A stretch of 64,000 nt of DNA. It comes from Micromonospora terminaliae. GTDB taxonomy: Bacteria; Actinomycetota; Actinomycetes; Mycobacteriales; Micromonosporaceae. Shown in pieces: positions 1 to 16,559 of the stretch. The notes under the pieces were generated by a model. That model did not search any database, had not been told where the DNA came from, and was given only the letters and a program-made list of their open reading frames with translations. Position 1 is the stretch's first letter. The number at the start of each line of letters is the position of its first letter. The stretch covers positions 2,976,001-3,040,000 of the forward strand of contig NZ_CP045309.1 of NCBI RefSeq assembly GCF_009671205.1, in the 5' to 3' direction. The translations under genes were made by a program, and so were the position numbers.

Positions 1-640
1 TGACCGCGCGTACCTGCTCGGGGTCCTGGCCGTCGACGGCGGTCGCCGGCATGCCGAAGGCGGCGGCGCGGCCGGCGATGGTGCCGGCCACCGCGCCCTC
101 GACCGGCATGGTGGTGGCGTAGCCGTTGTTCTCGCAGACGAACAGCACCGGCACCCGCCAGAGCGCGGCCAGGTTGAACGCTTCGAGGAGCATCCCCTCG
201 TTGACCGCGCCGTCGCCGAAGAAGGTCGCCCCCACCACGTCGTCGCCGCGCCGCCGGCGCGCCCACACCGCTCCGGTGAGGATCGCGCCGGCGGCCCCGA
301 CGATGGCGTTGGCGCCGAGCACCCCGACGCCGAGGTCGGCGGCGTGCATCGACCCGCCCCGGCCGCGGTTGAGCCCGGTGACCCGGCCGCACAGCTCGGC
401 GAGCATCCGGGCCGGGTCGGCGCCCTTGGCGAGCACGTGCCCGTGCCCGCGGTGGGTGCCGGTCACCAGGTCCCCGGGGCCCAGCGCCGCGCAGACGCCG
501 GCGGCGACGCCCTCCTGGCCGAGGTACGGGTGGATGCCGCCGACGATCTCACCGGCGTCGACCAGCTCGATGGCCCGCTCCTCGAAGCGGCGGATGAGCC
601 GGACCGTCCGGTAGAGGCCGGCCGGGTCGGGACCGGTCAC
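1..640 (-). CDS. 2-oxoacid (pyruvate/acetoin-type) dehydrogenase E1 component, alpha subunit, partial
   Basis: Thiamine-diphosphate-dependent E1-alpha, which decarboxylates a 2-oxoacid and passes the acyl group to a lipoyl E2. The reverse-strand frame is open from a GTG at 640 to the window edge (213 codons; the C-terminus lies outside). The ThDP motif is clear: GDGAVNEG, then [17 protein letters not shown], the expected GDG-X(~25)-N signature. [15 protein letters not shown] and [13 protein letters not shown] are also typical of the family. The start overlaps the stop of the upstream DUF3050 gene (GTGA), so translation is probably coupled. An E1-beta gene should lie just outside the window. 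Its place in a PKS operon suggests that it makes an acyl-CoA starter from a 2-oxoacid; the substrate is inference. Confidence 0.85.
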
Positions 641-1434
641 GCCGGGCGGCCCTCCTTGATCGCGGCCAGGATGTCGTCCCAGAGCCGCGCGCGGGCGGCG
701 AGGGCGGCGTTGACCGTGTCGGCGCACTCCTGCCATTTCCCGTCGTCGTCGCCGCACAGGTCGGCGAGCATCTGCATGGCCATGGGCGTGTGCTGCTCGC
801 CGTCGACCTCGATGTGCCGCTCCAGGTAGTCGACGAACGTGTTGAGCCGGTTGCTGCGCTCGTTGACCGCCACGACCTGGGTGAACATCTCCGGGATGAG
901 GTCCTCCCGGCCGAACGCGAAGGCGGCCGCCTGGCAGTGCACCGGGGTGCTCTCGATGATCCGCCAGGTGGTGGCGGCGAACGCGGCCGAGGGCGCGGGC
1001 ACGCCCGCCTCGGCCAGCGCCGCGGTGACCGGGCGGCCGGCGCGCAGCAGGTCGACCAGCCGGTCCACGGCCCCGGTGTCGGCCCCAGCCTCCCGCATGC
1101 CCCGCACGTACAGCTCGAAGTGGCTGATGTAGCCGTCGCCCAGCTCGTCGCTCTCCTCGACCATGACGATGTCGTTGATGAGGCGGCGGCTGCCGGTCGG
1201 GCCGGTGGGGATCCACGGGACGGCCACGCAGGTGAGCTGGCGCTGCAACGACTTCAGCAGCGACATGAAGTCCCACACCGCGAAGACGTGGTGCTCCATG
1301 AACGTGACCAGCGCCTCGTGGGTGTCCAGGTTGGCGTAGAGCGGGTGCTTGACCACCACGTCGCGGCGGTCGGTCACGGCCCGCTCCAGCCGCTCGATGC
1401 CCGGGTGGGTCCTCCCCCAGTCGTACCGTGACAT
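637..1434 (-). CDS. DUF3050 family protein (heme-oxygenase-like fold)
   Basis: A 265-aa protein matching the DUF3050 pattern as I know it: [20 protein letters not shown] followed by [19 protein letters not shown], a VEESDE motif and a SHFELY motif. The family is placed in the heme-oxygenase-like superfamily, which includes diiron oxidases/oxygenases. Conserved His and Glu residues (HH in FMEHHVF, EES, HFE, RHIEVD) could be metal ligands, but activity has not been shown for this protein. It lies one base downstream of the PhyH-like gene and overlaps the E1-alpha start by 4 bp, so it belongs to the same operon. It probably carries out an oxidative step on a small acid or carrier-bound intermediate; the reaction is unknown. 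Confidence 0.75.
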
Positions 1435-1435
1435 G

Positions 1436-2359
1436 TCAGCCTCCCTGCGGGGCGCGGTCGCGCCAGATGACCGGGCAGAAGTCGGGGTCGGCGTAGTCCG
1501 GCCGGCCCTCGGGGGTGCGGCGGACCAGCACGTCGTGGTTGTACGCGGCGAGCGTGCCGTCGGAGAGCGGATACTCCCGCCAGGCGTTGGCGCCGTCCTG
1601 CAGGTGCAGCGAGACGGCCTGCCGGGGGCGGCCGCTGACGTTCGGGCCGCTGCCGTGGTAGACGCGGCAGTGGTGGAAGCTCATGTGCCCCTTGGGGATC
1701 ACCATGGGCACCTTGCGGATCTCCGCCCGGTTGTGCGCGGCGTTCTCGGCGAGCATCGCCTCCAGCTGGTCGCGGTCCCGGTCGGCGAAGTGCCGGACCA
1801 CGGTGTCGTCGGCGCCGACCTCCCGCCAGCGGTGCGAGCCGTCGACGATGGTGATCGTGCCCATCTCCTCGCCGCAGTCGTGGAACGGGATGAACGCGGT
1901 GAGCATGTTCTCCGAGGAGGAGGACGCCCAGTAGTGCTTGTCGAAGTGCCAGGGCACGATGTTGGACGGCTCGCCGGAGATCGGCGGCTTGTAGATGAGG
2001 GTGGACTGGAAGATCCGGATCTCGTCGGCGCGCGCGAGCCGGGCGGCGACCGCCCCGATCAGCGGCTTGCGGAGGATCCGGCCGAGCGCGTCGTGCTCGT
2101 GGTGCACGTAGTCGTTGTGCCGCTGCACGTCGCCCTTGGCGGGCTCCCAGTAGGCCAGCTTCGGCGGGCGGACGGGCAGCCGCCGGTCCCGCTCGCCGGC
2201 GTAGTAGCGGTCGGTCGCCGCCACGAGGGTGTCCACCTCGTCGTCGGTGAGCAGCTTCCTGCTCAGGTACCAGCCGTGCTCGGCGTAGTGCCGCACGTCC
2301 TCCTCGGACGGCAGCAGCGCCTCCTCCTCGGCCGTCAGCACCGGATGTGTCGTGGTCAT
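1436..2359 (-). CDS. Phytanoyl-CoA dioxygenase (PhyH) family Fe(II)/2-oxoglutarate-dependent oxygenase
   Basis: A 307-aa protein with a complete Fe(II)/2OG facial triad. HFD lies in PWHFDKHYW (H138, D140), the distal His in [10 protein letters not shown] (H235), and Arg residues for 2OG at [10 protein letters not shown] (R244/R246). Members hydroxylate or otherwise oxidise small molecules, often in natural-product pathways. The start ATG overlaps the stop of the hydroxymandelate-synthase-like gene (ATGA), and DUF3050 follows after one base, so three iron enzymes are translated as a block. A hydroxylation or desaturation of the starter acid or the polyketide is plausible; the substrate cannot be read from sequence. 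Confidence 0.85.
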
Positions 2360-3462
2360 GCCCGAACCCCTCCTGCCGTCCCGGCCGCGGCGGCAGGGGT
2401 CGCCCCCGCCGCGGCGAGTTCGCGTTCCTTGGCCTCGTAGAGCGCCTTGATGTTGCCGCTGCCGAAGGTGCGCGCCCCGCGCCGCTCGATGAGTTCGAGG
2501 AAGAGGGTGCGGCGCACGTGCATCGACTCGGTGAAGATCTGCAGCAGCTGGCCGTCGTGGTCCGAGTCGACCAGGATGCTGAGGTCGCGCAGCCGTTCCA
2601 GCGGCGCGTCCACCTTGCCGACCCGCCGTTCCAGGTCGTCGTAGTAGGTGTCCGGAGTGCCGGCGAAGCGCACCCCCCGGCCGGCGAGGGCGCCGACCGC
2701 CGTGACGATGTCGTCGGTGCGCAGCCCGAGGTGCTGCACCCCGGCGCCGGCGTGCCAGCGCAGGAAGTCCTCGATCTGCCCGGGCCGCCGGCCGGTGTCC
2801 GGCTCCAGCAGCACGAGGGTCACCCGCCCGGACGGGCTCTGCACCACCTTCGAGTTCATGGCCTGCCCGGCGACCTCGATGTGCTCCTCGAAGATCTGCG
2901 CGAAGCCGAAGACCTTCTCGTAGTGCCCGATCGTCTCGTCGAGCTGGCCCGGCGGCACGCAGACCGCCAGGTGGTCGATCTCGGCGAGCAGCGGGATGTC
3001 CCCGCCGCCGGGCCGCGCCTCGATGGCGCCCGGCAGGAACGCCGTCCGGTCGCCGCGCCGCTCGACCAGCCGGTGCAACACGTCGCCGAAGCCGCCGACC
3101 TCGGCGGTCACCACCTCGGCGTCCGCCCCCGTGAAGGTGCGCGGCGCGGTCACCCCGGTCGCACCCCGGGCCACCAGCTCCGCATACGCCCCGGCGGCGT
3201 CGTCGACCTCCAGGGCCACCACGGCGATGCCGTCGCCGTGCCGCTGCACGTACGTCGAGGCCGGGTGCTCGGCGGTCAGCCCGCTGGTGAGCACCATCCG
3301 GACGGCGGCCTGTTCGAGCAGCAGCGAGCGCTGCCCGGCCAGGCCGGTCTCCGGGCCGCCCTGGCCCCGCAGCCGGAAGCCGACGGCCGTCTCGAAGTAG
3401 AAGGCGGCCTGGCGGGCGTCCCCCACGTACAGCTCGATGTGGTCTATTCCGTTGATGTCCAT
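2356..3462 (-). CDS. hmaS: 4-hydroxymandelate synthase / HPPD-family dioxygenase
   Basis: A 368-aa vicinal-oxygen-chelate dioxygenase with two VOC halves. The iron ligands are visible as H164 (EIDHLAV), H244 (GVQHLGL) and E323 (LELIERRG). The C-terminal stretch FGSGNIKALYEA and the segment AMNSKVVQS resemble glycopeptide-cluster hydroxymandelate synthases (HmaS) more than housekeeping HPPD, which usually reads FGKGNFKALFE. HmaS converts 4-hydroxyphenylpyruvate to 4-hydroxymandelate with CO2 release; HPPD makes homogentisate from the same substrate. A purine-rich RBS (AAAGG) precedes the ATG. No Hpg-forming oxidase or aminotransferase lies in the window, so the product probably feeds something other than an NRPS. 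HmaS over HPPD is about 80% sure. Confidence 0.8.
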   Translation of the reverse strand: MDINGIDHIELYVGDARQAAFYFETAVGFRLRGQGGPETGLAGQRSLLLEQAAVRMVLTSGLTAEHPASTYVQRHGDGIAVVALEVDDAAGAYAELVARGATGVTAPRTFTGADAEVVTAEVGGFGDVLHRLVERRGDRTAFLPGAIEARPGGGDIPLLAEIDHLAVCVPPGQLDETIGHYEKVFGFAQIFEEHIEVAGQAMNSKVVQSPSGRVTLVLLEPDTGRRPGQIEDFLRWHAGAGVQHLGLRTDDIVTAVGALAGRGVRFAGTPDTYYDDLERRVGKVDAPLERLRDLSILVDSDHDGQLLQIFTESMHVRRTLFLELIERRGARTFGSGNIKALYEAKERELAAAGATPAAAAGTAGGVRA

Positions 3463-3498
3463 CGGTAGCCTTTCCCCCTGTTCCCCCCGTTACTGCGA

Positions 3499-3516
3499 CC
3501 CGGGCGTCCGCCCGGG
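3499..3516. terminator. Short GC hairpin between KS gene and hmaS
   Basis: A 7-bp perfect stem (CCCGGGC/GCCCGGG) with a 4-nt loop in the 65-bp gap between the KS stop (3528) and the hmaS start. There is no U-run. It could slow or partly stop transcription, or pause it within the operon. It is short, so confidence is low. Confidence 0.35.
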
Positions 3517-3527
3517 GTGGAGTCCGA

Positions 3528-4793
3528 TCAGTTCGCCGAGGTCGGCCCGGCGGCCCGCCGGGCCGGTGCAGGCACCCGGCGCAGCAGCAGGCTGACGTTC
3601 TGGCCGCCGAACCCGAACGAGTTGGTCAGCGCGTGCTCGGCCCGGGTGGCCCGCGGCGCGGCACGGACGTGGTCCGCCTCGCAGTCCGGGTCCGGGTCGT
3701 CGAGGTGGTAGGTGGGCGGGAGCAGCCCGCGCCCGAGGGCGAGGGCGGTGGCCGCCGCCTCCAGCACGCCGGAGGCGCCGAGCAGGTGCCCCGTGAGGGC
3801 CTTGGTGGAGCTGACCGGCACGCCGCCCACCCCGAACACCGCCGCGAGGGCGGTGGTCTCGGCGATGTCGCCGAGTTTCGTGCCGGTGCCGTGCGCGTTG
3901 ACGTAGCCGACCTCGACCGGCGTCACTCCCCCGCCGGCCAGCGCCCGGCGCATGCACGCCGCCGCCCCGGCGCCGTCCGGGCGGGGCGCGGTCGGGTGGT
4001 GGGCGTCGGTGTTCACCCCGTAGCCGGCGACCTCGGCGTAGCCGGTGACCCCCCGGGCGGCGGCGTGCCCGGCGCGTTCCAGCACCAGCAGCGCCGCCCC
4101 CTCGGCGAGTACGAACCCGTTGCGCCGCTTGTCGAACGGGCGGCTCGCCTCGGTGGGCTCGTCCCAGCCCCGGGCCAGGGCGCGGGCGTTGCCGAAGGTG
4201 TCGGCGAAGGTCGGGAAGAGCGGCGCCTCGCTCGCCCCGCACACCACCACGTCGGCCTCCCCGGCCTCGATGAGGCGTACCCCGTCGGCCACGGCCTGGG
4301 CGCCGGAGGCGCAGGCCGTGCCCACCGCGGAGCTGTAACCCCGGATGCCGTGGGCGATGGCGATCCGGGCCGACGGCATGTTCGGCAGGATCCCGGTGAG
4401 CAGGTACGGGCTGACCGCGGCCCGGCCCCGCGCGGCGCGGGCCAGGACCTGGCTCTCCAGGGTGGACATCCCGCCGACCCCGCCGACGATCACGCCGATC
4501 CGGTCCGGGTCGACGTCCCGCCCGACCTCGAGGCCCGCGTCGGCGAGCGCCTCGGCGGCGGTCAGCAGGGCGAGCAGCACGACCCGGTCGAGCACCTTGG
4601 TCTCCGGGCCGGAGGCGACGCCGCGCGGGTCGATCTCCGGCAGGACCCCGGCCACCTCCAGGCTGTCCCGGGCCGGGTGCCCCTCGGGCGGCCGGCGCAG
4701 CCCGGACCGGCCGGTGGTGAGCGCCGTGAACGTCTCCTCGACGCCCCGGCCGGCCGGGGTGAACAGCCCCATGCCGGTGACGAGGGCGCTCAT
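3528..4793 (-). CDS. Beta-ketoacyl-ACP synthase (FabF-like KS, complete catalytic triad)
   Basis: A 421-aa condensing enzyme with all catalytic residues: C161 in GTACASGAQAV, H301 in VNAHGTGT, H336 in KALTGHLLGASG, and the C-terminal NSFGFGGQN loop. It performs decarboxylative Claisen condensation of an ACP-bound extender with an acyl primer. The ATG at 4793 overlaps the upstream ligase stop (ATGA). It is the only fully active KS in this block. With the defective KS at 6996-8186 it may form a KS/CLF-like pair, separate from the KS-alpha/KS-beta pair at 11426-13941. It closely follows the ligase, which suggests that it elongates the acyl group the ligase activates. Confidence 0.9.
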   Translation of the reverse strand: MSALVTGMGLFTPAGRGVEETFTALTTGRSGLRRPPEGHPARDSLEVAGVLPEIDPRGVASGPETKVLDRVVLLALLTAAEALADAGLEVGRDVDPDRIGVIVGGVGGMSTLESQVLARAARGRAAVSPYLLTGILPNMPSARIAIAHGIRGYSSAVGTACASGAQAVADGVRLIEAGEADVVVCGASEAPLFPTFADTFGNARALARGWDEPTEASRPFDKRRNGFVLAEGAALLVLERAGHAAARGVTGYAEVAGYGVNTDAHHPTAPRPDGAGAAACMRRALAGGGVTPVEVGYVNAHGTGTKLGDIAETTALAAVFGVGGVPVSSTKALTGHLLGASGVLEAAATALALGRGLLPPTYHLDDPDPDCEADHVRAAPRATRAEHALTNSFGFGGQNVSLLLRRVPAPARRAAGPTSAN

Positions 4794-6406
4794 GACGGGG
4801 CCTCGGCCAGGTACCGCTCGCGCAGCGCCACCTTGCGGACCTTGCCGGTCACGGTGACCGGGATGTCGTCGGCGCGTACCGGCACCACCCGGCGCAGGGT
4901 GGCGGCCAGGTCCGGCCCGACGGCGGCGCGGATCCGCGCGCTGCGGTCCTCGGCCGGGTCCGCCCCGGCGGCCAGTTCCAGCAGCACGTCGGTCACCACC
5001 CTGTCGTTCTCCTTGACGATCACCACGGTGCAGTCGGTGACGTCGGCGCAGGCGGCGAGGATGCGTTCCTCGGACAGCGCCGTGAAGAACCGCGTTCCGT
5101 CGCCCGCCTCGACCGAGTCCACCGCCCGGTCCAGGTGGTACCAGCGGCCGTCGGCGTCGGCGCGGACCAGGTCGCCCGTGAGGTACCAGCCGCGCAGCCG
5201 GGACCGGTAGGTGGTGACCGAGTCGTTCCAGTAGCCGCGGAACAGCGACGGCGAGTCGACGCCCAGCCAGCCGACCTGCCCGGGCGGCAGCTCGTCGCCC
5301 GCCTCGTCGAGCACGGCGACCTTCGTGAACCGGTACGGGCGGCCGACGCAGCGGCCGTACCGGTCGGTGTCGACGGTGTGGGTGATGTGGAACATCGAGT
5401 GCCCCATCTCGCTGGAGCCGAGCCCGTCGATGAAGACCGAGCCGGGCACCCGGGTCACCCCGTCGCGGGTCATGACGTCCCGCGAGCCCACCTTCACGAG
5501 CCGGCGCACGTGCGGCTCGTGCGAGCAGTCGCCGGTGTTGAACCACAGCCGCACCGAGTCCAGGTCGTACGCGGACAGGTCGAAGCGGGCCAGCTCGGCC
5601 CAGGTGACGGAGAACCCGAACACGCCGTCCGGCCGCCAGCGCTGGACGGCGTCGAGGACCCGCTCGCCGCCCTGCTCGGAGAGTAGGTACATCTCCGCGC
5701 GGTTGCCGAGCGCCTGGTTGACCATGAGCACGGTCGCGGTGTGCGGGGCGGGCAGCGCGTTGAGGATCCGGCTGGTGCCCTGCGCCTGCGGCATGGCGAG
5801 CAGGTGCCGGGTGGCGGCGAAGAGGCTGGCGTGGGAGTGCAGCACCGCCTTCGGCACCCCGGTGGTGCCCGAGGTGTGGGTGATGACGATCGGGTCGTCG
5901 TCGTGGTGCCGGTAGCGCTCCGGGGCCACGGCCGGGTCGCCGCCGCCCGCCTCGGCGGGCTCGCCGAGCAGGGGCGCCCCCAGGTCGTGCCCCTGCAGGG
6001 CCGCGGCGTGCGCGGCGTCGGCGAGCACCCCGGCGGCGCGCAGCCGGCGGATGTACTCGGCGGCGATCTCCGGGCGCAGCCGGCCGTTCATCAGCGCCGG
6101 GATCGCGCCGAGCCGGGCCAGCGCCAGGAACGACAGCACCATGTCGGCGGCGGCGCCGGCCCAGACGGCGACCGGGTCCCGTGGCCGGACGCCCCGCTCG
6201 TGCAGCCAGGCGGCCCGGGCGGCGACCAGCTCGTCGAGCCGGCCCAGGGTCAGCGGGGTCTCGGCCGGGTGGCCGTCGACCGCCGTGTCGAAGGTGAGTC
6301 CCGGCCCGTCCGGGTCGGCGCCGTGGGCCAGCACCCGGGCGAGCACGTTGCCCGCGCCCAGCTCGGTGTCGGCCGCGAGGGCGCCGCGCAGTCCCTTCGT
6401 CCTCAT
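4790..6406 (-). CDS. Acyl-CoA/acyl-ACP synthetase (ANL superfamily AMP ligase)
   Basis: A 538-aa AMP-forming ligase. The phosphate-binding P-loop is THTSGTTGVPK, the adenylate region includes GLGSSEMG, the hinge region GWYLTGDLVR, and the catalytic Lys lies in VTVTGKVRKVAL near the C-terminus. It activates a carboxylic acid with ATP and loads it on CoA or an ACP phosphopantetheine. Starts and stops overlap both neighbours by 4 bp (ATGA), so it is expressed together with the KS and the KS-like protein. Substrate specificity cannot be assigned. An unusual starter acid, perhaps one made by the HmaS/PhyH/DUF3050 enzymes, is an inference. Confidence 0.85.
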   Translation of the reverse strand: MRTKGLRGALAADTELGAGNVLARVLAHGADPDGPGLTFDTAVDGHPAETPLTLGRLDELVAARAAWLHERGVRPRDPVAVWAGAAADMVLSFLALARLGAIPALMNGRLRPEIAAEYIRRLRAAGVLADAAHAAALQGHDLGAPLLGEPAEAGGGDPAVAPERYRHHDDDPIVITHTSGTTGVPKAVLHSHASLFAATRHLLAMPQAQGTSRILNALPAPHTATVLMVNQALGNRAEMYLLSEQGGERVLDAVQRWRPDGVFGFSVTWAELARFDLSAYDLDSVRLWFNTGDCSHEPHVRRLVKVGSRDVMTRDGVTRVPGSVFIDGLGSSEMGHSMFHITHTVDTDRYGRCVGRPYRFTKVAVLDEAGDELPPGQVGWLGVDSPSLFRGYWNDSVTTYRSRLRGWYLTGDLVRADADGRWYHLDRAVDSVEAGDGTRFFTALSEERILAACADVTDCTVVIVKENDRVVTDVLLELAAGADPAEDRSARIRAAVGPDLAATLRRVVPVRADDIPVTVTGKVRKVALRERYLAEAPS

Positions 6407-6999
6407 TGACGTGTTCCCTCCCCCAGCAGCACCGCGGTCGCCTCGCCCGGCGTACCGTCCGGTGCCTGTTCGATCAGGACCAGCAACGCCTGTGCGGCGT
6501 CGCCGTCGTACAGCAGCAGGTCCGCCTCGGCGGCGCCCTCGGCCCACGGGTCCCCCGTCGGGCTCAGGCACACCACCGGCCCGTCCAGCCCCCAGCGCGC
6601 CGCGACGTGCCCGGCCACGCTGTTCGGCACCGACTGGAAGAAGAACAGCGGGCCGACCCGGCCGCCAGCTGCCACCGTGGCCCGGACGTGCGCGGCGCTG
6701 GCCCGGTCGCCGCTCGCGCTGACCAGCACCACCGCCGTCCGGTTGCCGGCGGGCAGTGGCCCGGACCCGTACCGGCGCCGCAGGCACCGCTCGGCCACCG
6801 CCACGACGAGCGGCGCGAACGTCGAGTGCACGAACCCCGGCACCGGAGGCGGCGGGCCGTCCCCACCCTCGGGCCACCGCGCCTCGGCGAGCGTCACCCC
6901 TCCACGCGATCTTGCAGTTTGTGCCCACGAGGCGGGCCTTACGCCCGAGTTGTCGGGGCGGGAAGTGCACGATCGCGGGTCGGGGTGGGCGGCGGTCAC
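6403..6999 (-). CDS. N-terminal-only beta-ketoacyl synthase homologue (KS-like, PF13723 type)
   Basis: A 198-aa protein resembling the short 'ketoacyl-synt_2' proteins found with aryl-polyene and other type II PKS loci. It has FFFQSVPNSVAGHVAARWG, then GPVVCLSPTG where the KS nucleophile Cys would fall, then ends without the C-terminal half carrying the two His. It may act as a structural partner, a chain-length factor or an acyl-transfer accessory. The GTG at 6999 overlaps the KS stop (GTGA), which supports this start even though residues 9-32 come from a palindromic repeat (6905-6975). A start near codon 36, after the repeat, would give a protein without the leader. Function is not established. 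Confidence 0.7.
   Translation of the reverse strand: MTAAHPDPRSCTSRPDNSGVRPASWAQTARSRGGVTLAEARWPEGGDGPPPPVPGFVHSTFAPLVVAVAERCLRRRYGSGPLPAGNRTAVVLVSASGDRASAAHVRATVAAGGRVGPLFFFQSVPNSVAGHVAARWGLDGPVVCLSPTGDPWAEGAAEADLLLYDGDAAQALLVLIEQAPDGTPGEATAVLLGEGTRQ
6905..6975 (-). repeat. Palindromic repetitive element, copy A (in KS-like gene leader)
   Basis: A 71-bp element that aligns without gaps to 46905-46975. On the minus strand both begin CGATC-N-TGCACTT and end with GGGCAC, AACTGCA and ATCGCG at the same offsets. The termini are an imperfect inverted repeat (11 of 13 positions). Here it encodes residues 9-32 of the KS-like protein and is read in frame 1 of the element. Confidence 0.75.
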
Positions 7000-8186
7000 G
7001 GCGCACTCACCAGGAGGGCCGTGTTGGCGCCGCCGAACGCGGCGTTCAACGTCAGGGCGTACGGCGTCGGTGCGGGGCGGGGGGCGTCCGTGATGACGTC
7101 CAGCGGGCAGTTCTCGTCGGGGCCGAGCCAGCCGGCGTTGACCGGCAGCTTGCCGTGCCCCAGCGCGAGTGCCGTGACCACCAGTTCCAGCAGGCCGGAC
7201 GCCTCCAGCGCGTGCCCGTGCACCGCCTTCGTGGAGCTGACCGGGATCCGCCCGGCCGCCGCGCCGAACACCCGGCCCAGCGCCGCCGCCTCGGAGGCGT
7301 CGCTGTAGGGGGTGCCGGTGGCGTTGGCGTTGACGTAGCCCACCGCCCCGGCCGGGAGCCCGGCCCGGCGCAGCGCCGCCTCGGCCGCCCGGGCCAGGCC
7401 ATGCCCCAGCGGGTCCGGCTGGCAGGGGTGGTACGCGTCGCCCGCCCGCCCCCAGCCGGCGACGGTGGCCACCGTGGGGGCGCCCCGCGCGCCGGCCGCG
7501 TGCGCCGACTCCAGCACGACCGCCGCCACCCCGTCACCGAGCAGCAGACCCTGGCGGCCGGCGCTGAACGGGCGGACCGCCCCGTCGGCGGCGAACGCCC
7601 GGCCGGCGTCGAAGAGGGCGTACTGGTCCGGCTCGACCAGGTAGCCGGCCGCGACCACGACCCGGTCCAGGTCGCCCCGGCCGACCAGGGTCGCGGCGTC
7701 GGCGACCGCGGTGCTCGCCGACACGCAGGCGGTGGTGTAGACGCGGGTGCCTCCACCCAGGCCGCAGCGGCGGGCCAGGTGACCGGCCAGCGCCGGCACC
7801 TCCGGCCCGGCGTCCCGGCCGCCTGGCGGCTCGGCGTCCCGGCCGCTCGGCGGCCCGGGTGGGTCTCCGGGCGGCGTGGCCGGCGCCGGCAGCGAGTGCG
7901 GGCCGCCGTGGGTGGCCAGGAACAGCGCCGCGCCGGCCCGGTGCGGGCCGTCCAGGCCGGCGGCCCGGCACGCGCGGTCGACCGCGTCGGTCAGCTCGTC
8001 GGCGAGGGCGCCGACCTCCGGCAGCGTGGCCGCCACGGTGACCCGGCGGCCGGCGGTGTCGAAGCGGCGCACCGGCGCGAACGCCGGGGTGCCGGCGAGC
8101 ACCCCGGCGAGCAGCGCGTCGGCGCCCCTGCCGAGGGCGCTGAGCGCGTGGACGCCGGTGATCCTCAGGTGCTCCCGCTCAGCCAT
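6996..8186 (-). CDS. Beta-ketoacyl synthase homologue lacking the first catalytic His
   Basis: A 396-aa KS-fold protein. The Cys is present (C154 in YTTACVSAST), and so is the second His (H325 in KAVHGHALEASG), but the usual HGTGT His is Asn (N288 in VNANATGT). An extra Pro/Gly/Arg-rich loop at residues ~101-130 contains a repeated GRDA unit. It may be a decarboxylase or CLF-like partner for the complete KS at 3528-4793, or a KS with altered chemistry. The start overlaps the end of the ACP gene by 8 bp, and its stop overlaps the next gene (GTGA). Assignment to the KS family is firm; activity is not. Confidence 0.8.
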   Translation of the reverse strand: MAEREHLRITGVHALSALGRGADALLAGVLAGTPAFAPVRRFDTAGRRVTVAATLPEVGALADELTDAVDRACRAAGLDGPHRAGAALFLATHGGPHSLPAPATPPGDPPGPPSGRDAEPPGGRDAGPEVPALAGHLARRCGLGGGTRVYTTACVSASTAVADAATLVGRGDLDRVVVAAGYLVEPDQYALFDAGRAFAADGAVRPFSAGRQGLLLGDGVAAVVLESAHAAGARGAPTVATVAGWGRAGDAYHPCQPDPLGHGLARAAEAALRRAGLPAGAVGYVNANATGTPYSDASEAAALGRVFGAAAGRIPVSSTKAVHGHALEASGLLELVVTALALGHGKLPVNAGWLGPDENCPLDVITDAPRPAPTPYALTLNAAFGGANTALLVSAP

Positions 8187-8424
8187 CTGCGGGGACGGTC
8201 AGCGAGGACTGGAACACCGCGAGGGCGTCGTCGACGGTGCGGATGCCGGCGAGCTGGTCGTCGGTCAGCTCCAGCCGGCGGCCGTAGCGTTGCTCGACGA
8301 GGTGCACGAGCCAGGCCAGCTCCATCGAGCCGATCCGGTCGGGCACCTGGTCGACGGGTTTCGCGGTCAGCTCGGCGAGCATGCTCACCAGGTCAGCTCG
8401 CCCCAGGTCGGGCTGACCGGTCAT
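8179..8424 (-). CDS. Acyl carrier protein (GSM motif)
   Basis: An 81-aa ACP-like protein. The predicted phosphopantetheine site is in DRIGSMELAWLVHLVEQ, where the usual DSL is GSM and the Ser is kept (S33). Acidic helix II and a terminal TVDDALAVF helix fit the ACP fold. It overlaps the preceding ACP by one base (TGATGA) and the next KS by 8 bp. With two carrier proteins side by side, one may hold the starter and the other the growing chain, as in several type II systems; this division is inference. Confidence 0.75.
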   Translation of the reverse strand: MTGQPDLGRADLVSMLAELTAKPVDQVPDRIGSMELAWLVHLVEQRYGRRLELTDDQLAGIRTVDDALAVFQSSLTVPADG

Positions 8425-8687
8425 CAGGAGTTGTCGCTGTTCGCGATCACCCGGTCGGCGACCATCGTGGTGAACTCGCCGACCGTCATGAGCGCCAGCT
8501 TCTCCGACTCGTCGTCGGGGAACGTGAGGCCGTACCGGTCCTCGACCCGGACCGCGAGGTCGGCCAGGGCCAGCGACTCGAGGTCGACGCCGGAGGGGCC
8601 GAGGGTGGTGTCGTCGTCGATGTCCTCGACGTCGTAGTTCATGTCGGCGAGCTGCTCGATGACGAAGGCGCGGACCTCGTCTCGCAT
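8424..8687 (-). CDS. Acyl carrier protein
   Basis: An 87-aa acidic ACP. The phosphopantetheinylated Ser is S38 in GVDLESLALADL. LTFPDDESEKLALMTVGE is a typical helix III/IV region. An AAAGAGG ribosome-binding site lies before the ATG. This is the first gene of the minus-strand block, but only 17 bp separate its start from the divergent PPTase, so its promoter must lie within or beyond the PPTase gene. It is a likely target of that PPTase. Confidence 0.85.
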   Translation of the reverse strand: MRDEVRAFVIEQLADMNYDVEDIDDDTTLGPSGVDLESLALADLAVRVEDRYGLTFPDDESEKLALMTVGEFTTMVADRVIANSDNS

Positions 8688-8704: not shown

Positions 8705-9388
8705 GTGAACCAGCTACCGGTGCCCGGTCGGGACACCGTGTACGTGTGGACCGGCCGTGCCGACGGCGACCAGCGGGTGCTGGCGCGGCGGCTGCTCAGG
8801 CGCGCGGGTGGCGCGTTGCTCGGCCGGCCCGAGGCGGAGATCGGGGTGGGACGGGCGCCCGGCGGGCGCCCGGAGGTGTACGCCGGCGGGCGGACGCTGC
8901 CGGTCGGCGTCAGCCACGCCGGTGGGGTGGTCGTGGTGGCCGCCCGGGCGGGCGGGCCGGTCGGGGTCGACGTGGAGCGGCGCCGGCCGCTGCCCGCCGT
9001 GTCCCTGGCCCGGCGCTGGTACGACCCGGACGAGGCGGCGTGGCTGGCCGCCCGGGCCGAGGCCGGCCGGGACCTGGACTTCCTGCGCCTGTGGACGGCC
9101 AAGGAGGCGGTCGGCAAGGCGCTCGGGGTGGGGCTGCGCGACGGGGGGCTGCGGCGCCGGATGCCGGTGCCGGACGGCGGCGGCGAGCTGCTGCGCCCGG
9201 TGCCCGGCTGTGCCGGCGTGCGGGTCGGCCATCCGGCCGGCGGGCCGGGCCTGGTGCTCGCCGTCGCGGTCGCCGGGGCGGCCGGGCCCGTCGAGGTCGC
9301 CCTCGAACAGGGGGCCGGTCATGACGCGGCGTCCCGCAGCGCCGAGGTGGCGCGGACCAGCTTGCCGGTGGTCGTGCGGGGCAACTGA
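8705..9388 (+). CDS. 4'-phosphopantetheinyl transferase (Sfp type)
   Basis: A 227-aa Sfp-family enzyme that converts apo-ACPs to holo-ACPs with CoA. Signature residues are GVDVE (D89, E91, Mg2+ site) and WTAKEAVGKALG (E134, K138). It starts at GTG 8705 with no clear RBS and is divergent from the ACP gene by 17 bp. Its last ~70 bp overlap, tail to tail, the end of the AMP ligase at 9319, an unusually deep overlap. It presumably activates the carrier proteins of this cluster. Confidence 0.85.
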   Translation: MNQLPVPGRDTVYVWTGRADGDQRVLARRLLRRAGGALLGRPEAEIGVGRAPGGRPEVYAGGRTLPVGVSHAGGVVVVAARAGGPVGVDVERRRPLPAVSLARRWYDPDEAAWLAARAEAGRDLDFLRLWTAKEAVGKALGVGLRDGGLRRRMPVPDGGGELLRPVPGCAGVRVGHPAGGPGLVLAVAVAGAAGPVEVALEQGAGHDAASRSAEVARTSLPVVVRGN

Positions 9389-10716
9389 GCGAGCAGGTGC
9401 AGGGTCCGGGGCCGTTTGTAGCCGGCCAGGCGCTCGGCGAGCAGCTTGTCCAGGGTGTCCTCGGCGAGCGAGCCGTCGGTCTGCACGTACGCGGTGATGC
9501 CGTCGTCCCAGACCACCACGGCGGCCGTCACCCCGGGCAGCTCGGCGACGGTCGCCTCCACCTCGGTGAGGTCGACCTTCAGGCCGCCCACCGACACCTG
9601 CGAGTCGAGCCGCCCCTTGACGGTGACCAGGCCGGTGCCCGGGTCGACCGTGCCGGCGTCGCGGGTGTGCAGCCAGCCGTCGGCCCAGCGGGTCGGGTCG
9701 GCCAGCCCGACGTACGGGTTGGCCGGGCAGCTCACCCACAGCTCGCCGCCCGACTCCCGGACCCGGATACCGGGGGCGGGGGCGATGGCGGGGCGGTGTG
9801 CGCCGTACAGGTCGGTGCCGATGACGCCGACCTCGGTCATCCCGTACATGTTGCCCAGGGGGACGCCGTAGCGGTCGGTGAAGGCGCGGGCGACGGCGGC
9901 CGGGACCAGCTCGCCGCCGGTGGTCATGCGCTTGAGCTGCGGGAGCGGGCCGGACGGGACGGTGGAGGCCAGCAGGCCGATGTGGAACGGCACGCCGAGC
10001 ACGGTGGCCGGGCTGTCCTGGGCGGCCACGGCGGCGAGGATCGCGTCGCCGCTCAGCCGCTCCGGCGGGCACAGCTCGACGCCGGCGTGCAGCCCGTAGA
10101 GCAGGCCGCCGACCAGGCCGAGCACGTGCACCATCGAGGGCAGCAGGACGATCCGCTCGCCGGGCAGCGCCACTCCGTCGATCCTCGTGTAGCGGTGCAC
10201 CTCGCCGACCAGGTCCGCCGCGGTGCGGCCGATCACCTTGGACGGCCCGGTCGAGCCGGAACTGAGCTGGATGACCGCGTGCGGGCTGCCGGCGGGGCGG
10301 TCCGAGTAGGCGGTCACGCCCTCGGTGACGTCCACGAAGATCCGCAGGGCGCCGCCGCCGGTCCGCACGGGGGCCACCACCACCTGCGGGACGAGGCGGC
10401 GCAGGGCCTTGTCGACCTCGTGGTCGGTGAGCCGGTGGTCGAGCAGGATCGCCTGGGCGCCGGTGCGCCAGGTGGCCAGCAGGTTCACGACGTACGCCAG
10501 CGACGGGGGCAGCCGCAGCGCGGCGGCGCCGCCGGGGCGCAGGCCGGCCTCGGTCAGCCGGGCCTGCGCCGCGCCGACGAGGCGGTGCAGGGTGGCCTTG
10601 TCGACCGGCTCGGGCAGACGGAGACAGATGTCGGTGGGACGCCCGGTGAACAGAGTGTCGTCCACCCAACTCGCGTCCGTCGACACCGGATCTTCCGCCA
10701 TAGGATGTGCTGTCAC
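9319..10716 (-). CDS. Class I adenylate-forming ligase (acyl-CoA/ACP synthetase)
   Basis: A 465-aa ANL-family ligase, shorter than most CoA ligases. The P-loop is QLSSGSTGPSK, the A5 region GNMYGMTEVG, the hinge GWLHTRDAG, and the catalytic Lys is in TTTGKLVRA. It is monocistronic on the minus strand behind a 259-bp upstream region. The start is either GTG 10716 or ATG 10701; neither has a strong RBS. It may activate a different acid from the ligase at 4790-6406 and load one of the two ACPs. The end overlaps the PPTase by 70 bp. Confidence 0.8.
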   Translation of the reverse strand: MTAHPMAEDPVSTDASWVDDTLFTGRPTDICLRLPEPVDKATLHRLVGAAQARLTEAGLRPGGAAALRLPPSLAYVVNLLATWRTGAQAILLDHRLTDHEVDKALRRLVPQVVVAPVRTGGGALRIFVDVTEGVTAYSDRPAGSPHAVIQLSSGSTGPSKVIGRTAADLVGEVHRYTRIDGVALPGERIVLLPSMVHVLGLVGGLLYGLHAGVELCPPERLSGDAILAAVAAQDSPATVLGVPFHIGLLASTVPSGPLPQLKRMTTGGELVPAAVARAFTDRYGVPLGNMYGMTEVGVIGTDLYGAHRPAIAPAPGIRVRESGGELWVSCPANPYVGLADPTRWADGWLHTRDAGTVDPGTGLVTVKGRLDSQVSVGGLKVDLTEVEATVAELPGVTAAVVVWDDGITAYVQTDGSLAEDTLDKLLAERLAGYKRPRTLHLLAQLPRTTTGKLVRATSALRDAAS

Positions 10717-11425: not shown

Positions 11426-12676
11426 TCACCTCTCGTCCATCGGCGGCGGGGGCGCGGCGCCGCGGAGGACCACCGCGCTGTTGAAGCCGTCGAACCCCCG
11501 CGCGCCGACCAGGGCGATGCGGCTGCGCGGCGGGCGTGGCCGGCGCAGGAAGGTCAGTTCGCAGCCGGGCGCCGGATCCTCCGGCCCGGCCGAGGCGGGC
11601 AGCAGCGCGTGGTGGAAGGCGAGCAGGGCGGTGGCCGCGTCCAGCGCGGAACCGCCCTGGTGGGCCCGGCCGGTGAGCGGTTTCTGGGTGGTCACCGGCG
11701 GGGTCGTCGCGCCGAAGACGGTGCGCAGGGCCGCCGCCTCGGCCCGGTCGTACGCCGGCACGCCGAGCGCGTCGGGCCAGATGACGTCCACGTCGTGCGG
11801 GCGGACCGCGGCCCGGTCCAGGGCCAGGCGCAGCGCCCGGGCGTAGTGGATCGGGTCCGGGCCGGCCTCGGCGTCGGTCGGCGCCGCGTCGTGGGTGGCC
11901 GCCCAGCCGGTGATCTCCCCGTAGATCCGGGCGCCCCGGGCCAGCGCGTGCCCCAGCTCCTCCACCACGAAGACGGCGCCGCCCTCGGCCGGCACGTAGC
12001 CGGTGGCGCCCGCGTCGAACGGCCGGTACGCCCGCTCCGGGTCGGCCACGTCGCTGAGCAGGCCCGAGCGGAGCTGGCAGGCCAGCGCGTACGGGCTGAG
12101 CGGGCACTCGGTCGCCCCGGCCACCACGAGCGGGGTGCCGCGCCGGATGGTCCGCACCGCGTGGGCGAGGCTGTCCAGCCCGCCGGCCGACTCGGAGACG
12201 GTCACCCCGCACGGCCCCTTGAGCTGGTGCCGGATGGACAGCTGGCCCACGCTGGCCGCATAGAACCAGGCGATCGACTGGTACGCACCGACGGTCCGGG
12301 TCGGCCCGCCCCAGAGCCGTTGCAGTTCCCGCTGCCCGAACAGGTTCCCGCCCGACGAGCTGGCCAGGGTGACCGCCCACTGGTACGGGTCGGGCGCCTC
12401 CTCGGGCAGGCCGGCGTCCGCGAGGGCCAGGCGGGTGGCGGCGAAGCCGAGGTGCGTCCACCGGTCGGTCTGCACCCGCTGCCGCGTGTCGGCGAACCCG
12501 GCCGGGTCGAAGTCGGGCACCTCCCCGCCCACCCGCGTCGGGTAGCCGGCCGGGTCGAACAGGGTGATCGGCCCGGTGCGCCGGGTGCCGGCGAGCACGG
12601 CGTTCCAGTGCGCGTCGGCGCCGACGCCGGTCGGTGCGACCACCCCGATCCCGGTCACCACGGCCCGGGCGGTCAC
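11426..12676 (-). CDS. Type II PKS ketosynthase beta / chain length factor
   Basis: A 416-aa KS-beta. It has the KS fold but lacks the nucleophile: in [13 protein letters not shown] the Cys position is Ser (S163), where most CLFs have Gln. The HGTGT and GH motifs are also lost ([21 protein letters not shown]). CLF forms a heterodimer with KS-alpha and sets chain length. The GTG at 12676 overlaps the KS-alpha stop (GTGA), the usual KS-alpha/CLF coupling. A Ser in place of Gln may change malonyl-ACP decarboxylation priming; see findings. Confidence 0.92.
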
Positions 12677-13937
12677 GGGTGCACCGCCAGGCGGCGGAAG
12701 ATCATCGCGGACTGGAAGCCGCCGAAGCCGCTGCCCACCGACAGCGCCACGTCCACCGGCACCTCCCGGGCCTCGTTGGGCACGTAGTCCAGATCGCACT
12801 CCGGGTCCCGGGTGGTCCAGTTGGCGGTGGGCGGGACCACGCCGTACTCGATGGCCAGCGCGCACGCGGCCATCTCGATGGAGCCGATGGCGCCGAGCGA
12901 GTGCCCGACCATCGACTTGATCGAGCTGACCGGCACCCGGTACGCCGTGGCGCCCAGCGCCCGCTTGAACGCGGCGGTCTCGTGCCGGTCGTTCTGCCGG
13001 GTGCCCGAGCCGTGCGCGCTCACGTACGACACGGCCGACGGTGCGAGCCGGGCCTGGCGCAGCGCGTCGCTGATGGCCACGGCCATCTCCGCGCCGTCGG
13101 GACGCAGCCCGGTCATATGGAACCCGTTGCTGCGACTGGCGTAGCCGGCCACCTCGCAGTAGACGTGCGCGCCCCGCCGGCGGGCGTGCTCGGCCTCCTC
13201 CAGCACCAGCACGGCGGCGCCCTCGGCCAGCACGAAGCCGTGCCGGTCCGCGTCGAACGGCCGCGAGGCGTGCTCCGGGTCGTCGTTGTCCGGGCTGGTC
13301 GCACCGATGGCGTCGAAGGAGGCGACGGTGACCGGGGAGATCGGCGAGTCGGCGGCGCCGGCCAGCACGATGTCCGCCTCGCCGTCGGCGACGAGCTGGT
13401 GGGCGTACCCGATGGCGTCGATGCCGGAGGTGCAGCCGGTGGAGATCACCTGGGCGGGGCCGTGCAGCCCGTGCCGGACCGCCACGTCGGCGGCCAGGCT
13501 GCTCGGGATCAGCGCCTGGTACAGGTACGGCCCGCCGAGGGTGTGGTCGACCAGCCAGTGCCGGCCGGAGTCGCTGACCCGGACGTACTCCTTCTCCAGC
13601 GCCATGGTGCCGCCGACCGCGGTACCGAGCACCACGCCGGTCCGTTCCCGCTCGGCGTCGGAGAGGGTCAGGCCGCTGTCGGCGAGCGCCTCGGCGGAGC
13701 AGGCGAGGGCGAACTGCACGTACCGGTCGGCGCGCTGCCGCTCGGCGAGGGTGATGCCGGCGGCGTCCGGGTCGAAGTCGCACTCGGCGGCGATCTGCGA
13801 GCGGAACGGCGACGGGTCGAAGAAGCTGATCCGCCGGGTGGCGGTGCGCCCCTCGGTGATGGTCTTCCAGAACCGGTCCCGGGTGGCGCCGCCGGGGGCG
13901 ACGACGCCGACGCCGGTGACCACGGTGCGCCGGCCGG

Positions 13938-13941
<4 letters not shown>
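12673..13941 (-). CDS. Type II PKS ketosynthase alpha
   Basis: A 422-aa minimal-PKS ketosynthase with a full triad: C170 in [20 protein letters not shown]310 in [20 protein letters not shown]347 in [15 protein letters not shown]. It catalyses iterative malonyl-ACP condensation to an aromatic poly-beta-ketone with the CLF. It starts at GTG 13941, overlapping the cupin stop (GTGA). The order cupin, KS-alpha, KS-beta matches the whiE (curCAB-like) spore pigment loci, although the ACP here is fused to the cyclase instead of following KS-beta. Confidence 0.95.

Positions 13942-16559
<2,618 letters not shown>

Follow-up and report, generated by a model that had tools for sequence, protein, structure and literature searches.

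A conserved ketosynthase and oxygenase gene block beside the aromatic polyketide synthase of Micromonospora terminaliae

Genes of the block

We analysed 64,000 nucleotides of Micromonospora terminaliae (RefSeq assembly GCF_009671205.1, contig NZ_CP045309.1, positions 2,976,001 to 3,040,000 of the forward strand), referred to here as the window. Its minus-strand genes at positions 1-8687, together with their continuation to the left, form an operon that we call the block and that most likely represents a self-contained, conserved and apparently undescribed cluster class of actinobacteria. Genomic stretches taken for comparison carry L-numbers, L009 being the left flank of the window in its own genome.

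In the order of transcription, the window portion of the block encodes two acyl carrier proteins (ACP1, 8424..8687, PF00550; ACP2, 8179..8424), a ketosynthase (KS-A, 6996..8186, PF00109/PF02801), a short PF13723 protein of 198 residues (6403..6999; 33.7 bits, cutoff 25), an adenylate-forming enzyme (ANL, 4790..6406, PF00501), a second, FabF-like ketosynthase (KS-B, 3528..4793, PF00109/PF02801), an HmaS-like 2-oxoacid dioxygenase (2356..3462, PF00903), a PhyH-family Fe/2OG oxygenase (1436..2359, PF05721), a DUF3050 protein of a haem-oxygenase-like oxidase family (637..1434; PF11251 at 1.6e-96 and 323 bits against a cutoff of 22.2; PF14518; PDB match 9vwb), and an E1-alpha (1..640; PF00676, 6.7e-63) that is cut by the window edge and runs on into L009. 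Consecutive genes overlap by 1-8 bases or are 1-3 bases apart, the sole exception being a 65-base space ahead of HmaS. The initial annotation had described these genes as an operon of their own, and the domain assignments bear this out. ACP1 has Ser38 in 78/78 rows; ACP2 has no Pfam match at all and is called from an NCBIfam ACP match (E 0.008) and its invariant Ser33 (79/79 rows).

Extension to the left, which the initial annotation had proposed, yielded the E1-beta gene (L009:18704-19669, PF02779/PF02780), so that both E1 parts of a 2-oxoacid dehydrogenase are present, and a gene for a 451-residue ATP-grasp-like protein (L009:17345-18700) whose ATP-grasp match is sub-threshold. Of the E1 complex that had been invoked, a dedicated E2 was not found in the operon, including its continuation past E1-beta, nor were reductases found there. 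A second E1-alpha/E1-beta pair, 36-37% identical to that of the operon, is located 28-30 kb beyond the window's left edge, and the open reading frame beside it (-31230..-29788) may be E2-like, judging from its first residues. L009 also holds an Hmo-like FMN alpha-hydroxyacid oxidase gene (L009:4181-5404), for which 4-hydroxymandelate oxidases are the closest proteins of solved structure (385 bits), an adjoining aminotransferase gene (L009:2866-4179), and, close to Hmo, a P450 gene (L009:6377-7600) identified by scan.

On the other side of ACP1 are an accessory 4'-phosphopantetheinyl transferase (PPTase) gene (8705..9388, plus strand, PF01648) and the minus-strand gene of an AMP-binding ligase with an AMP-binding_C domain (ANL2, 9319..10716, PF00501/PF13193). 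The initial annotation had left out ANL2, which by its distribution belongs to the set since it is found in 76 of the 80 loci compared below; the PPTase goes with it. Beyond these, at 11426-15052, lies an aromatic minimal polyketide synthase (PKS) comprising KS-alpha, a chain-length factor (CLF), a cupin and an ACP-cyclase.

As had been noted from the window, there is no ketoreductase or dehydratase in the operon, and we found none among the directly flanking genes. The conclusion drawn from this, a lower likelihood of reduced starters, has little force because cispentacin formation employs FabI (passages of PMC10698177) and a fatty-acid dehydratase has been proposed for the p-coumarate (Cma) system (passages of PMC10777205).

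Conservation and the ketosynthase pair

A profile scan of genome contigs with the KS-A alignment gave 86 relatives. We retained the best 80 loci and searched every one with the reference proteins. Ten core genes (ANL2, ACP1, KS-A, half-size CLF, ANL, KS-B, HmaS, PhyH, E1-alpha and E1-beta, the half-size CLF being the short PF13723 protein) occur together, each at an identity of at least 40%, in 66/80 loci, mostly in conserved order, in Micromonospora, Salinispora, Actinophytocola, Catellatospora, Kribbella, Kitasatospora, Rhizocola, Catenulispora, Streptomyces and other genera. Such sharing of gene order over many genera is far beyond chance. HmaS, like ANL2, was found in 76 loci, PhyH in 75, E1-alpha in 73 and E1-beta in 72; at an identity of at least 55%, ANL was found in 73 and KS-B in 76. 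DUF3050 (64/80), ATP-grasp (53/80) and a PPTase match (52/80) are less constant, and ANL2 is missing from L014, L046, L087 and L089. The gene set, unfamiliar to the initial annotation, is thus not rare; it did lack a characterised counterpart, in that a literature search of open-access full texts found neither a description of the set nor a characterised cluster with it. Since KS-A is present in 35 of the 61 Micromonospora genomes sampled and many further actinobacterial genera have the set, the block appears to be a widespread cluster class. A phylum-wide sample showed a close KS-A in 2/396 genomes, both Micromonospora, and eight further matches at 36-44% identity; this sample is no measure of spread because just four candidates per genome were scored.

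The description of one complete ketosynthase and one with a lost histidine holds. In the window, KS-A has its catalytic Cys and second His, with Asn in place of the first His, and KS-B has the full Cys-His-His. All 83 KS-A sequences (L091-L093 in addition to the 80 loci) retain the Cys, and the His pair reads N/H in 71, H/Q in eight and H/H in four (L052, L091, L092 and L093); both are lost in none, and 79 of the 80 loci lack one of the two. The H/Q state forms a single clade, and N/H requires two or three changes. In a 41-row KS-A tree, the 38 sequences of the HmaS-type group (including L054 and L089) fall together with support 98/96, leaving the pabB-type L091 outside. Plain decay of KS-A was rejected because the Cys is kept in 83/83 sequences and the changed residue follows clades. 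The result is a natural ketosynthase series in which the first or second catalytic His is lost and the Cys never. L074 and L078, from the same species, differ in KS-A type (H/Q versus N/H).

KS-B, by comparison, reads C-H-H in all 78 rows (five of the 83, scoring under 250 bits, were left out), of which 77 count since the L076 row is an aromatic KS. Given that KS-A mostly lacks one His and KS-B keeps its triad, the ordinary condensing enzyme here is probably KS-B rather than KS-A with the half-size CLF.

The PF13723 protein had been listed as an N-terminal-only ketosynthase. The short protein is there, and its predicted structure (pLDDT 74.8) resembles a half-size CLF instead, the top Foldseek match being ApeC (6qsp_B, E 7e-7, TM 0.49) and the second 7f28_A; 7F28 is named in passages of PMC8358021, on the A. 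baumannii system. From this model we take it to be a half-size CLF of ApeC-like fold, with KS-A as its probable partner. ANL2 is predicted, with fair probability, to load an aryl acid onto an ACP, and relatives with other starter supply suggest that this would be a para-substituted benzoate or close aryl acid.

A plasmid cluster of Streptomyces sp. NBC_00335 (L091:9700-24457) has ANL2 (57%), KS-A (54%), KS-B (58%), the half-size CLF (42%) and the PPTase (43%) in the same order. HmaS, PhyH and E1 are replaced there by pabB, next to which ANL2 lies, by a class IV aminotransferase and by a diiron oxygenase; the KS-A triad is intact, and the cluster further encodes an additional ACP and an aminoacyl-tRNA-ligase-like protein. 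In NBC_01340, KS-A is more distant (44%) and a match to pabB is present. The KS-A of NBC_01343 is 41% identical; an aminodideoxyheptulosonate synthase and a 3-dehydroquinate synthase II are annotated there, and E1-beta and E2 occur with an E1-alpha match. Beside this distant KS-A, its plasmid cluster (L092:9487-21374) carries FabV, hotdog and MaoC genes and genes of aminohydroxybenzoate type, together with E1-beta/E2. The gene content suggests that starter supply varies among relatives sharing the KS/half-CLF core. Because one and the same core is combined with alternative aryl supply genes (the HmaS route, pabB, or aminohydroxybenzoate-type), comparison of these clusters makes the choice of starter testable.

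Aryl supply and accessory enzymes

Hydroxymandelate formation, which the initial annotation had placed at the start of the route, is supported. Among solved sequences the dioxygenase matches HmaS best (2r5v, 312 bits), ahead of two chains named as 4-hydroxyphenylpyruvate dioxygenase (HPPD; 292 and 252 bits) and of 1t47 (243 bits). The metal ligands are conserved (H in 75, H in 75 and E in 73 of 76 rows, the remainder being gaps bar one Gln), and position 338, which we take to be the site where HPPD has Phe, reads Ile in 72 of 74 readable rows and Val in the other two. These sequence features support an HmaS-type enzyme.

The next step of that route, oxidation to an aryl 2-oxoacid, is likewise supported, because the Hmo-like gene and the aminotransferase travel with the operon. 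We sampled 61 Micromonospora genomes, including that of the window, 37 with PhyH and 24 without. At an identity of at least 60%, the aminotransferase is present in 37/37 of the former versus 1/24 of the latter, where the single copy has an internal stop (Fisher 6e-16, not corrected for kinship). It shares a contig with PhyH in 34 of the 37 genomes, and in 32 it is within 25 kb. Of 25 operon genomes of other genera, 22 have the aminotransferase and 21 the Hmo-like gene no more than 25 kb from PhyH. Inside Micromonospora, Hmo was rejected as a strict operon marker.

A plasmid of S. angustmyceticus (L109:11726-18372) carries consecutive genes for HmaS, Hmo, PhyH (66% to that of M. terminaliae), aminotransferase, DMT transporter and prephenate dehydrogenase; no KS is annotated there, and the run of genes resembles an independent operon for a modified arylglycine. 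Two or three PhyH copies occur in genomes G469, G471, G472, G473, G474, G476 and G478 (L074, L077, L079-L083, L085), mostly Kitasatospora by loci. PhyH neighbourhoods examined in Planktothrix and Paraburkholderia were uninformative. Putative P450 genes follow DUF3050 in the Actinophytocola loci L059 and L060, which lack E1.

ANL falls in the AvaA6 diazotase branch: it scores 493.9 bits against the NCBIfam AvaA6 model, short of the cutoff of 975, and the next family scores 142.2. Its nearest PDB chain is 8ztz, followed by Tri17 (8TF7/9BQ0). Because of this branch and the nearby Tri17 structures, nitrite activation by ANL is possible. For DUF3050, a passage of PMC3298696 identifies MgoB as a member; by a term search, a 2026 review of such oxidases (PMC13108848) does not use the name DUF3050, and a 2026 MboA paper (PMC13185094, passages) concerns a different protein. 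The 451-residue protein is likely an amide-forming ATP-grasp enzyme, since its AlphaFold model (pLDDT 89) matches glutathione and glutathionylspermidine synthetases.

Proposed pathway, alternatives and known systems

Gene content shows that ANL2, two ACPs, KS-A/half-CLF and KS-B, often accompanied by the PPTase, share an operon with HmaS, PhyH, E1-alpha/beta and, in most cases, DUF3050. We consider it reasonably probable that this is an aryl-acid-primed, aryl-polyene-like type II system without reductive genes of its own, fed by the HmaS route and independent of the aromatic PKS. HmaS would convert 4-hydroxyphenylpyruvate to 4-hydroxymandelate and Hmo would oxidise this to the aryl 2-oxoacid, which would then have two possible fates: transamination, yielding an arylglycine, or decarboxylation by E1 as in the mandelate pathway, yielding a 4-hydroxybenzoyl unit. 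One ACP would receive the aryl acid from ANL2 and the second would bear malonyl, and KS-B would carry out the condensation, with KS-A/half-CLF as a partner hardly capable of normal decarboxylative condensation. PhyH, DUF3050 and ANL may tailor the unit, and the ATP-grasp enzyme, where present, may form an amide.

Several observations weigh against this reading. Every chemical step in it is inferred. E1 is missing from L057, L059 and L060, ANL from L052, L057, L070 and L073, and both HmaS and PhyH from L054 and L089; some of the gene absences are contig ends, and others, for example L059 and L060 (E1), L052, L070 and L073 (ANL) and L054 (HmaS, PhyH), are not. The dioxygenase passes the HPPD model TIGR01263 (NCBIfam 4HPPD; 351.7 bits, cutoff 277) and in M. 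terminaliae has Val217 and Leu219, where Thr and Ile are usual for HmaS, so that 4-hydroxymandelate as its product is a prediction. Hmo may have another role in Micromonospora genomes without PhyH, as 19/24 of them keep it. If E1 itself makes the acyl thioester, ANL2 would be superfluous, and the presence of an aminotransferase among the genes favours an arylglycine over a benzoyl unit.

The initial annotation had the block build an unusual aryl starter that primes the aromatic PKS at 11426-15052. Adjacency speaks for this: KS-alpha adjoins the block in 43/49 Micromonospora/Salinispora loci (of the remaining six, five end at contig edges and L086 has 4.7 kb upstream without KS-alpha), and Hmo adjoins the PKS even where the block is absent. 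Outside these genera, however, KS-alpha is beside the block in 0/31 loci, the best match there being 42%; of the 25 other-genus operon genomes, several of them draft assemblies, 16 have a KS-alpha at 57-73% and nine have nothing above 42%. Conversely, the 61 Micromonospora genomes hold KS-alpha in 59, PhyH in 37 and KS-A in 35, and the aromatic PKS is retained in 22 of the 24 without PhyH. Stretches were compared from 15 of the 26 Micromonospora genomes without a KS-A match, and 13 show the PKS without block genes, apart from a 42% E1-beta match at the edge of L103 and an aminotransferase piece in L106; L108 stops short of the PKS, and in L105 the operon is there, its KS-A broken up into several matches. 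The split KS-A (L105:9375-10557) and the 76% aminotransferase remnant (L106:13083) reflect either loss in progress or assembly error. The block as starter supplier of the aromatic PKS was rejected on occurrence, each being found without the other; priming of the neighbouring PKS is not supported by these comparisons and we rate it highly improbable, while a genus-specific recruitment may have taken place in Micromonospora and Salinispora. A spore-pigment-type role would fit an aromatic PKS found in 59/61 genomes.

In a different scheme the product would be a modified arylglycine, either as such or in amide form, which the KS and ACP proteins acylate or tailor on a carrier, and no benzoyl-primed polyketide would arise; we judge this rather unlikely. 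The linkage of Hmo and aminotransferase, the KS-free S. angustmyceticus cassette with its DMT transporter and the amide-ligase fold of the ATP-grasp protein would all agree with it, but relatives of ANL2 and the ketosynthases accompany aminobenzoate-type supply genes, and KS-B has a full triad. We also find it unlikely that free E1-alpha/beta moves a tyrosine-derived aroyl group from the aryl 2-oxoacid onto an ACP, with KS-A as partner or transacylase and the unreduced aroyl joined by an amide to an arylglycine of the same pathway. Activation of nitrite by ANL, leading with the aid of DUF3050 to an aryl compound that is N-oxidised or carries an N-N bond, would draw on the AvaA6 score, the Tri17 structures and MgoB. 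The AvaA6 cutoff, however, is not reached, some loci are without ANL and DUF3050, and nitrite-forming genes were not noticed beside the loci (no family-level search was made), which leaves this quite improbable.

The preferred reading, an aryl-primed type II system, can be set beside four known systems. The hydroxyphenylglycine pathway consists of HmaS, Hmo and HpgT, and HmaS-like, Hmo-like and aminotransferase genes occur with the block; unlike that pathway, the set includes PhyH and is tied to a KS/ACP operon, and no peptide synthetase was seen. The cispentacin AmcF-AmcG KS-CYF system (PMC10698177, in part) resembles the block in its KS with a short PF13723 partner, ACP, AMP ligase and non-aromatic type II logic; AmcC, AmcD and AmcE genes were not seen in the block, and membership was rejected, as AmcG (34.5 bits, cutoff 80) and AmcF (155.8 for KS-A and 213.4 for KS-B, cutoff 325) fall below their cutoffs. 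The avenalumate/p-coumarate ava/cma systems (PMC10777205, in part) share a starter ligase, two ACPs, a KS pair and an adenylating enzyme of the AvaA6 branch, but the block operon shows no aminohydroxybenzoate genes, its CLF is half-size and its ANL is below the AvaA6 cutoff. In the aryl polyene system, as described in passages of PMC8358021, a starter ACP, a malonyl ACP, a KS with half-size CLF and a second KS cooperate, and a ligase loads benzoyl. The block differs from it in having no ketoreductase or dehydratase of its own, in adding HmaS, PhyH, DUF3050 and E1, and in a KS-A that has lost a catalytic His; like it (ApeO-ApeC, ApeR), the block has two consecutive ACPs, a KS by a half-size CLF of ApeC fold, a second KS and a starter ligase.

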